This document shows, piece after piece, positions 37,738-41,482 of a stretch of 43,072 nt of DNA. Numbering within the stretch: the first letter of the stretch is position 1; each line of letters starts with the position of its first letter. This stretch comes from a virus. The stretch spans positions 1-43,072 of the IMG/VR virus record IMGVR_UViG_3300024262_000071, one strand, 5' to 3'. Made by a program: the position numbers and the translations under genes. Below the pieces are notes generated by a model, which was not told the DNA's origin, searched no databases, and saw nothing but the letters and a program-made list of their open reading frames with translations.

Positions 37738-39540
37738 ATGGCGGGATTCACGCTCAAAAGAATGGACCAATCTCAAATGGGTTGGGCTAAAAACATTCAA
37801 AGAAATATAAGGTACCTTGCTCAATTAGGTATGAGATGGGAAGACAAGCTTATCAAGCAGTCTAAATCCATAGGTATTGCTGAAGCCCAGTTAGATTCAA
37901 TGTATGGCCTTTATTATCAAGGTAATTACATGGGAACTGACTATGGACAGAAAGAATTTATTGCATTCTATGATAAAGAATATCCTACACGTAGGGATTT
38001 CTTACGTAAATTTGCAATGAATGGAGAGATCGAACACGTATTAGAAGTTATTGCGGACGAATCTATTATCTATGACAAAGGTAACTATTTTGCATATCCA
38101 GCCACTCAAAATCTTAAAGCAGTAATAAAAGCAGAAAAAGCCAAAGAAATTGTTGATGATTTAAATGCAGCATTCAAAAAAATATATTATGCCTTTGGGT
38201 TTAACGAAGGTCATGATGCATGGCACTATTATAAAAAATTCCTAATTGATGGATTCCTTTCTTTTGAAATCATTTATGATGGAGAAGGAGATAAGAAAGC
38301 AGAGAATGTTATTGGATTGAAAGAATTAGATCCAGTTTCATTAGAGCCCGAAATTAGAATTGATGAAAAAACAGGAAAAGAATATCGAGTATGGATCCAA
38401 TATAGAGGGGATACTCAAAAACAAAGAGAATTACTTGATTCCAACTTAATTTACATCTCATGGGCGCGCGGTAACTTCATTTCCAGACTATCATATGTCG
38501 AGAGACTCGTTCGTTCATTTAACATGCTAAGAACACTTGAGAACTCACGTATTATCTGGAACGTATGGAATGCTCAGATGAGGGTTAAGATCTTGGTCCC
38601 TATAGGATCTCAATCAGAAGCAAAAGCAAGGACAAGGCTTTCTGAATTACGTGGTATGTACAAGGAAGAATTGAACATTGATGATCAATCAGGTGAAGTA
38701 ACTTATAATGGGTCTCCACAGTTCAACTTTGCAAAGACCTTTATCATTCCTACTAAGAATGGAGAACAAACTGAAATTGGCGGATTCCAACCAGAAGGAT
38801 ATGATCTTTCTAATGTAGATTCCCTTAAATATTTTTGGTTAAGATTTGTAATTGAAACAAAAGTACCTCAGTCAAGATTCTCTAATCAGTTAACAGGAGA
38901 GTCTACCAGTAATCCATGGAGTTCTGGATCGGAATCAGCAGATCGTGATGAAATAAGATTCTCATATTTTATCAATAGAATCCGAGCAATATTCCAAGAA
39001 ATACTTTTGAAACCTTTGTGGCTTCAGTTTGTTTTAGCACATCCCGAGTTTGAAACTGATCAAGCATTAAAAGGTGCTATTGGCCTAAATTTTAATGAGG
39101 AGAATTTATTTAAACTTATTAAGGAAAGGGATATGGCTGAAAAAGGAGCCAGCACAGTATCTACAATGATGGGTATTATGGAGCCTACTGTTAATCCAGA
39201 TGGAACTCCAGGCGAAACCCCATATTTTGATGCTAAATTCCTTGTAGAGAAATATATGAGTTTCAACGAAGAAGATGTTAAACTCAATGCTAAATATAAG
39301 AAAGAAAGAGCCGATGAAGTTAAAAAATTAGCTAAGGCTTATGCTAGAATGATGCCACAGCAAGAAGAAGGTGGCGGAGAATTTGGAGAAGGTCTTGGCG
39401 GCGGAGGATTTGATGCAGGCGGCGGAGACTTTGGCGGTGGTGGATTTGATACCGGTGGAGGGGAGGACCTTGGAGGCGGAGAAGATCTTGGAGGTGGAGA
39501 TGAAGGAGGAGAATCAGCCGAAGGTGATATTGAACTATAA
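37738..39540 (+). CDS. 20: Portal protein gp20
   Basis: 600 residues matching T4-type portals: a KEFIAFYDKEYPTRRDFLRK region (about 82-101), VLEVIADESIIYD (about 111-123), DLNAAFKKIYYAFGFNEGHD (about 138-157), then the stem-like IETKVPQSRFSNQLTGES (about 370-390) and the DRDEIRFSYFINRIRAIFQE helix (about 400-420). Twelve subunits form the ring through which DNA is packaged and ejected and that nucleates the head. Length is above T4 gp20 (524); the extra part is a glycine-rich C-terminal tail (about 545-600) made of GGG, FDxGGG and EDLGGG repeats, unusual for a portal. Confidence 0.93.
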   Translation: MAGFTLKRMDQSQMGWAKNIQRNIRYLAQLGMRWEDKLIKQSKSIGIAEAQLDSMYGLYYQGNYMGTDYGQKEFIAFYDKEYPTRRDFLRKFAMNGEIEHVLEVIADESIIYDKGNYFAYPATQNLKAVIKAEKAKEIVDDLNAAFKKIYYAFGFNEGHDAWHYYKKFLIDGFLSFEIIYDGEGDKKAENVIGLKELDPVSLEPEIRIDEKTGKEYRVWIQYRGDTQKQRELLDSNLIYISWARGNFISRLSYVERLVRSFNMLRTLENSRIIWNVWNAQMRVKILVPIGSQSEAKARTRLSELRGMYKEELNIDDQSGEVTYNGSPQFNFAKTFIIPTKNGEQTEIGGFQPEGYDLSNVDSLKYFWLRFVIETKVPQSRFSNQLTGESTSNPWSSGSESADRDEIRFSYFINRIRAIFQEILLKPLWLQFVLAHPEFETDQALKGAIGLNFNEENLFKLIKERDMAEKGASTVSTMMGIMEPTVNPDGTPGETPYFDAKFLVEKYMSFNEEDVKLNAKYKKERADEVKKLAKAYARMMPQQEEGGGEFGEGLGGGGFDAGGGDFGGGGFDTGGGEDLGGGEDLGGGDEGGESAEGDIEL

Positions 39541-40592: not shown

Positions 40593-40624
40593 ATTTTTAT
40601 TTTCAATATAAATACAGTATATTA
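40593..40624 (+). promoter_or_regulatory. Candidate promoter of the tmRNA gene
   Basis: A T-rich tract (40594-40603), then about 20 bases to TACAGTATATTA (40613-40624), a member of the TTnnGTATATT family. Transcription would start near 40630, just before the first pairing of the acceptor piece. Confidence 0.55.
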
Positions 40625-40631
40625 AAGACAT

Positions 40632-40919
40632 TAGGTTCGTCCTTCATTAGAGGGACTAGTTGCGAGAGACAACTGTGTGGACCGGGGTTCGACTCCCCGC
40701 ACCTCCACAAATCAGCTATGGGATGGAACGCCATTTATGGTACATGGCTATAGATCTTAAAAGATTCCACAATGGGGGTGACTGGATTTGACAGCAGTGA
40801 GTAAGTAGTAATGATACCTGATAACCGCACCTAAACGGCGCAAATAAACAAACATTTGCTATGGCTGCGTAGTACGCACTCAGAGTAACGAGACTGGACA
40901 TCCTGCGAAAGTGGATGTC
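40632..40919 (+). ncRNA. ssrA: Permuted two-piece tmRNA (ssrA)
   Basis: Acceptor piece first: hairpins GTCCTTC/GAGGGAC (40640-40657) and AGTTG/CAACT (40658-40674), then T-stem CGGGG/CCCCG (40683-40699) with loop TTCGACT, then CACCTCC (40700-40706) and discriminator A. CCA is not encoded (ACAA). After an intervening segment (40711-40773) with its own hairpin AGCTATG/CATGGCT, the coding piece begins GGGGGTGACTGGATTTGACA at 40774. GGGGGTG pairs with CACCTCC as seven pairs with G-U at the third pair, the alanine identity element. The tag frame starts at GCA 40840: ANKQTFAMAA, stop TAG 40870-40872, the stop lying in a TGCG/CGCA hairpin. It would rescue stalled ribosomes and mark their products for proteolysis. 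Exact ends are estimates. Confidence 0.88.
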
Positions 40920-40927
40920 TTTTTTTT
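40897..40927 (+). terminator. Intrinsic terminator of the tmRNA gene
   Basis: GACATCC (40897-40903) pairs with GGATGTC (40913-40919) around a nine-base loop, then eight Ts (40920-40927). It ends the tmRNA precursor. Confidence 0.88.
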
Positions 40928-40958
40928 GTGATATATAGAAAAAGAAATATTCATCATA

Positions 40959-40978
40959 GATATATAAAATAAAATACC
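40959..40978 (+). promoter_or_regulatory. Candidate late promoter after tmRNA
   Basis: GATATATAAAATAAAATACC begins 26 bases before the ATG at 40985. A second similar string lies at 40929-40946 (GATATATAGAAAAAGAAA). Either could be the late element of the next gene. Confidence 0.4.
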
Positions 40979-40984
40979 ACCGAT

Positions 40985-41482
40985 ATGAAAGCTGGAAACT
41001 TTAACATAAATGATTATTTAAACAAGCTCAACGAAAATGCTGAAGGAAACTTAAAAGGCGATCCTATTGCTGGAATGATTCCTGCTGAGAACAAGAAGTC
41101 ATATGATTGGATCAAAAAAGAATATGATAAGGAAAAAGTTGAAGTAAAAGTGGAAATTAAAATGGGTGGATCCAAATTTGAACCAGGATATGAGATGCAA
41201 ACTGATCTTAAATCTGTAAAAGACTTCAAGCCAGGCATGTTTGGTGATGTTAAAACTTCTGATAGTCCTGGCGCTAAAAAAGAGACCAAGGACACTGCTC
41301 AGACAACTGCAGAAATAGAAGGAAAAAAGCCAGAGGCTGAGAAAAAAGCTGAAGCTTCCACAGGAGATAAAGGACCAAAAAATCCAATCTCTGCTAAAAT
41401 AAAAACTGCAGACGAATCAGAGGAGAAGGAGCCAAAAGAAGACAAAAAAGACAAGAAAGAAAAAGAAGATGATAAAACATAA
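40985..41482 (+). CDS. Disordered charged protein, 165 aa
   Basis: Starts MKAGNFNINDYLNKLNENAE. From about residue 95 it is a Lys/Glu/Asp-rich unstructured tail (KKDKKEKEDDKT at the end), probably an internal or scaffold-type head protein. Only the N-terminal 90 residues look folded. Behind a candidate late promoter; it overlaps the next gene by 14 bases. Confidence 0.65.
   Translation: MKAGNFNINDYLNKLNENAEGNLKGDPIAGMIPAENKKSYDWIKKEYDKEKVEVKVEIKMGGSKFEPGYEMQTDLKSVKDFKPGMFGDVKTSDSPGAKKETKDTAQTTAEIEGKKPEAEKKAEASTGDKGPKNPISAKIKTADESEEKEPKEDKKDKKEKEDDKT

Follow-up and report, generated by a model that had tools for sequence, protein, structure and literature searches.

The 43-kb fragment of viral DNA analysed here (an IMG/VR record, hereafter the window) carries a complete, circularly permuted tmRNA gene at about 40,632–40,927. 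Comparison of 31 distinct sequences from its clade, on which the consensus fold and all pair counts were made, established the gene's anatomy at the level of sequence: pairing between the two pieces, an invariant G3-U70, a coding tag and a fixed position. From these features we consider it very likely that the gene encodes a functional two-piece tmRNA that would be processed by the host, charged with alanine and used with host SmpB to rescue stalled ribosomes in infected cells. A phage-borne permuted tmRNA is not in itself a novelty: such genes have been published (PMC9004378) and are present in GenBank for crAss-like phages. As far as the open literature shows, the new element is a conserved permuted lineage in huge phages of the Bacteroidota type, with a fixed position among late genes. 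A two-piece tmRNA that covaries, is conserved and keeps one late-gene site, in phages whose presumed hosts have the one-piece form, shows that viruses can keep a gene form absent from their host.

Anatomy of the gene in the window

The permuted gene and its coordinates, both proposed earlier, were upheld by ARAGORN and by Rfam. ARAGORN called a permuted tmRNA (tmRNA*) at 40615–40963 with the tag GANKQTFAMAA, and model RF04321 (tmRNA_permuted) matched 40659–40872 over its full length (1–213) with 68.3 bits (gathering score 47, E 3.4e-11). The gene belongs to RF04321 by a permuted tRNA-like domain above this curated score, by an acceptor stem of 7 bp that contains G3-U70 and is followed by discriminator A, and by a tag reading frame that ends in a stop codon and shows coding-type variation. 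The window did not pass the standard one-piece model RF00023 (25.4 bits vs 47), which matched the acceptor piece only.

All parts lie on the plus strand. The acceptor piece begins with a 5' hairpin (GUCC...GGAC, 40639–40656), which most relatives share at this site, with different letters in the stem. It is followed by the 3' strand of P2 (40656–40682), which in the consensus fold pairs with the coding piece and joins the two RNAs, and by the T arm (40683–40699), seen on direct reading and in the RF04321 match, whose stem pairs form in 27–31 of the 31 loci with compensatory changes. The 3' acceptor strand CACCTCC (40700–40706) and the discriminator A (40707) complete this piece; CCA is absent, the letters there being A-C-A-A. 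An intervening segment (40709–40773), predicted to be removed, is ~65 nt long here and about 15–186 nt among relatives. The 5' acceptor strand GGGGGTG (40774–40780) opens the coding piece, and direct reading gave 7/7 pairs between the two strands with G-U at pair 3, the alanine-identity pair that had been pointed out in the initial annotation. The D-like loop and 5' strand of P2 (40781–40812) follow, as placed by the RF04321 match and the consensus fold. Downstream of these are the tag frame with its stop (40837–40872), a P5-type hairpin with a covarying stem around the stop codon (40866–40878), and a PK2-like pseudoknot (40889–40919) in which CG at 40889–40890 pairs with CG at 40906–40907 in the loop of a hairpin (40897–40903/40913–40919) whose stem covaries across loci. 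No canonical PK1 was identified, and the distance from the 5' acceptor strand to the resume codon is 55–69 nt in the clade versus about 90–113 nt in host genes.

The tag had been read as ANKQTFAMAA. Its frame is indeed coding (GCA..GCG at 40840–40869, then TAG at 40870–40872), but alignment with relatives (TAAACGGCGAA; GEN.. tags) indicates that translation probably resumes one codon earlier, at GGC (40837), giving GANKQTFAMAA. A promoter belonging to the gene itself, also proposed, was not recovered: a sigma-70 scan upstream of the tmRNA found nothing. A weak T4-late-promoter-like box, TATAAATA (40607–40614, plus strand), was rejected as a conserved T4 late promoter; within the window the octamer is no commoner than chance predicts (9 observed vs 8.7 expected), and of the 31 loci just the window and its closest relative have an exact copy. 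The proposed terminator fared better. A simple scan misses its hairpin (40897–40919), but the stem covaries strongly, and the hairpin and the T-run that follows (eight T, 40920–40927) are kept in relatives as an intrinsic-terminator-like element.

Conservation, carrier phages and hosts

All seven acceptor pairs were formed in 31/31 loci, with compensatory changes and up to four pair types per position. Pair 5 was G-C in 9 loci, A-U in 12, U-G in 3 and C-G in 7, and pair 4 was G-C in 24, G-U in 3 and C-G in 4; pair 3 was G-U and the discriminator was A in every locus. The acceptor halves belong to separate pieces once the RNA is mature, so their covariation is evidence for the split molecule itself. 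Between the pieces, P2 (column pairs 56–60/148–152 and 69–74/131–137 of the consensus fold) showed many two-sided changes, and covariation was likewise seen in the P5 hairpin and in the terminal hairpin. Positions of the post-tag pseudoknot co-change among C-G, G-C and A-U, with four rows needing a one-base register shift and eight rows unmatched. Non-canonical T loops were seen in five or six relatives: L024, L029, L032, L121 and L123 (and L118) have loops without UUCGA (e.g. GGCGGAA, GGCAGAA, GATCATA) in tmRNAs that are otherwise conserved.

The tag frame was open in 31/31 loci and ended in Ala-Ala in 30. The last codon was GCN throughout, with all four third bases used; the penultimate codon was GCN in 30/31, with a single Ala-to-Val change and otherwise third-position variation only; and the antepenultimate codon was Met, Ile or Leu in 30/31. 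Judged by the third-position variation in these last Ala codons over 31 loci, the tag of the clade is under coding selection. Clade tags are mostly G-initial and mostly end in [M/I/L]AA, often with K, R or Q before MAA; their bodies vary freely among relatives. They differ from tags of the sampled Bacteroidota hosts (..YALAA, ..SYRLAA).

The window also encodes topoisomerase II, UvsX-like, DnaB-like helicase and portal genes. Its portal protein is nearest to those of Prevotella Lak megaphages and a 462-kb uncultured huge phage (40–44% identity), and by this marker the carrier is a T4-type huge phage near the Lak megaphages. The upstream neighbour of the tmRNA is this portal gene (gp20-type, 37738–39540, plus strand; phrog_213, E 3.4e-49), and the downstream neighbour is the MKAGNFNINDYL.. 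ORF (40985–41482, plus strand), called scaffold-like by position only, with no family match. The order portal, tmRNA, scaffold-like ORF held at every examined clade locus having the gene and both neighbours.

A portal-alignment scan yielded 71 viral contigs; its only cellular match lay in a Bacteroidales MAG. Of the 17 closest records 14 had permuted tmRNA, as did another 20 clade records (34 viral records in total) and the MAG contig, whereas no record with portal identity ≤47% had it; clade records without a detected permuted tmRNA were mostly short fragments. Five clade contigs (L069, L074 and the near-identical L080, L081 and L084) have DNA past the locus and no detected tmRNA between portal and scaffold-like ORF, so the gene is not essential to all clade members. 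On the portal tree the permuted label needs 3 changes versus a shuffled mean of 15.4, which fits a single gain with a few losses. The closest sister of the clade on this tree is Lak, but on a long branch. Going by description, the clade plausibly corresponds to the 'moraphages', large aquatic phages near Lak with predicted Bacteroidota hosts (PMC12619734), a paper that does not mention tmRNA.

Bacteroidota use one-piece tmRNA, as the initial annotation had supposed: it passed the cut-off in 277/296 genomes from a spread sample of the phylum. Permuted tmRNA passed in 2/395 Bacteroidota genomes, and both cases are phage- or prophage-like. The first is a phage contig in the Bacteroidales MAG, with the portal end and downstream ORF adjoining; this MAG also has a one-piece tmRNA (157.7 bits) and SmpB. 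The second, L145, lies beside two tRNAs in genome G301 (contig 1, 986035–986308; tag GKVIQMNNAPVRLAA), which has its own one-piece tmRNA as well, and is probably a prophage locus. The Prevotella-infecting relatives and the only cellular match, in the Bacteroidales MAG, point indirectly to Bacteroidota as hosts of the clade, binning being no proof of host. SmpB was not detected in any of 18 clade records searched (window included, ≤405 kb; records may be incomplete), so the clade would rely on host SmpB that co-evolved with one-piece tmRNA.

Known tmRNAs and the origin of the permutation

Two-piece tmRNA has been described in three bacterial lineages (alpha, beta and cyano), some organelles, and phages sharing those lineages. 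The clade resembles the bacterial forms in part order, split acceptor stem, tag and few pseudoknots, but the window falls below all three gathering scores. It scored 21.3 bits with alpha_tmRNA RF01849 (best of clade 49.8, gathering score 50; alphaproteobacterial phage controls 82.6 and 113.3), 48.0 with cyano_tmRNA RF01851 (gathering score 70; cyanophage S-CAM1 control 128.2) and 37.3 with beta_tmRNA RF01850 (84 bits, in a set without a positive control).

In a pattern search of viral sequences, a strict T-arm/acceptor pattern with a 50–80 nt gap gave no matches and a looser pattern gave 91. Altogether 89 tmRNA genes were called in viral contigs from the permuted-order or clade-specific pattern, most with AN.. 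tags and encoded CCA; a minority, clade included, had mostly GE.. tags and CCA not encoded. Another viral permuted group (L193, L233, L265, L273) has the tag (G)EQVELAMAA, lacks CCA and differs in the post-tag region.

The 53 unique two-piece phage tmRNAs already described are mostly marine or aquatic (PMC9004378). These genes (Methylophilales phage Melnitz, Pelagibacter phage Mosig, cyanophages) are, like those of the clade, complete with tag and carried by T4-type and other phages. They group with alpha-, gamma/beta- or cyanobacterial genes, whereas the clade does not reach the cut-offs of the alpha, beta and cyano models. Viral genes of this similar kind recovered in the present analysis have encoded CCA and AN.. 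tags, whereas the clade genes mostly lack encoded CCA and mostly have G-initial tags; unlike the marine-phage genes, they also sit between the portal and scaffold-like genes. A 2025 tmRNA database created RF04321 and lists 79 phage sequences (PMC11915505). Translation-rescue genes in huge phages, tmRNA with SmpB, have likewise been published (PMC7162821), and the available part of that report does not mention gene form, the window clade or synteny. In the open-access literature we found neither a permuted tmRNA described for Lak-related or crAss-like phages nor any account of the portal synteny.

Permuted 'SsrA' genes of crAss-like phages (Burzaovirus, Chuhaivirus, Cacepaovirus, Buhlduvirus) are also carried by Bacteroidota-type phages, also do not encode CCA and, by eye, have a post-tag pseudoknot similar to that of the clade, but their tags read ..VDYT.VA and the phages are unrelated, with no common synteny. 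Five genes of crAss-like Oafivirinae (L048, L176, L180, L181, L182) are annotated plainly as SsrA and are actually permuted tmRNAs, with tags including ..VDYTNVA, ..VDYTHVA and ..VDYTGLQEAA.

Related phages carry one-piece genes. One-piece tmRNA scored above cut-off in Lak-A1, Lak-B4, LR756500, LR756504 and two 374–482-kb contigs, and each of them apart from LR756500 encodes SmpB as well. The Lak gene lies directly upstream of the portal, and its tags, by reading, end in ..RMAA; the gene order is standard, unlike that of the clade. Lak-A1 (L137, MK250016, 223026–223421, minus strand) and Lak-B4 (L138, MK250023, 416686–417095, plus strand) have genes missed by ARAGORN, with tags read as ..DDEI[DE]FRMAA. 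ARAGORN made no call for L140 and L141 either (G059, 482 kb; G062, 374 kb), whose tag, read from GGCAAC, runs for about 35 codons versus the usual 10 and ends in ..EELEIA or ..EELEFA. The tag end FAPVEMAVAA is common to LR756504 (L136, a 636-kb huge phage, one-piece) and to the permuted gene of the unrelated Ruegeria phage RpAliso (L047).

We give an even chance to the clade having acquired an already permuted gene, for example a proteobacterial-type phage tmRNA or one from crAss-like phages, and having adapted it to Bacteroidota hosts; this would be compatible with a functional two-piece tmRNA. Over the 77-nt tRNA-like domain, a proteobacterial-type permuted viral profile outscored a Bacteroidota one-piece profile for 26/31 clade sequences, but the one-piece genes of sister phages show a slight lean that way too, so base composition may bias this score. 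The similar pseudoknot can be read in proteobacterial-type as well as crAss-like genes, and the permuted genes of crAss-like phages allow for a common or transferred permuted ancestor. Against acquisition stand the failure of the alpha, beta and cyano models, the Bacteroidota-style Gly-Glu tag start, and CCA being possible in 1/31 clade genes versus nearly all proteobacterial-type viral genes. Somewhat less probable, in our estimate, is that the permutation arose inside a lineage of Bacteroidota phages, starting from a one-piece tmRNA such as the one beside the portal in Lak. The sister one-piece genes, the Bacteroidota-like tag start, the scarcity of CCA and the failure of known models all suggest this origin. 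If true, two-piece tmRNA would have one more independent origin, separate from the three known bacterial lineages and found in viruses only. Plasmid-borne bacterial permuted genes, sought as outgroups, gave weak partial matches only.

Predicted role in infected cells

From this anatomy we infer expression, processing, charging, use of host SmpB, timing and benefit as follows. Host tRNA-processing enzymes would cleave a single transcript to release an acceptor piece, with P2', T arm and 3' acceptor, and a coding piece made up of the 5' acceptor, D-like loop, P2, tag and pseudoknot; the ~65-nt intervening segment would be lost. The host enzyme would supply CCA, and the acceptor and P2 helices would hold the two pieces together. 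AlaRS would charge the molecule with alanine via G3-U70, and host SmpB and EF-Tu would bind it; SmpB in the putative host MAG suggests that this partner is available. Stalled ribosomes would then be rescued in infected cells and a degradable tag added, so that the phage may keep translation going during particle-protein synthesis. Fitting this role less well are the lack of detected SmpB in the clade records, the five contigs without the gene, the non-canonical T loops, the short stretch from 5' acceptor to resume codon and the missing canonical PK1. The clade is also a natural experiment on whether a split tmRNA is accepted by the SmpB, AlaRS and processing enzymes of the host. The role of phage tmRNA can be tested by comparing relatives that have one-piece tmRNA plus SmpB, those that have permuted tmRNA without SmpB, and clade members that have no tmRNA at this locus.

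A different main role, retagging and degrading chosen proteins (e.g. host proteins, for amino-acid recycling) and not freeing ribosomes, has been proposed for Melnitz (PMC9004378). It would suit clade tags unlike those of sampled Bacteroidota, with K, R or Q often before MAA, but we think it improbable since tag bodies are free to vary and conservation is limited to the common C-terminal degradation signal, and since the fixed place among structural genes suggests use in particle assembly. More improbable still is a decoy that binds SmpB, AlaRS or ribosomes and so inhibits host tmRNA. The tRNA-like-only RNA like that of mycobacteriophage DS6A is a precedent (PMC4131195; PMC11915505), and the clade has no detected SmpB, but a decoy needs no tag, and coding selection here maintains the tag frame together with its stop codon and Ala-Ala end. 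A relic or chance sequence, that is a decaying hitch-hiking gene, would fit the five contigs without it but can practically be dismissed, given compensatory helix changes and coding selection on the tag across 31 diverged loci.
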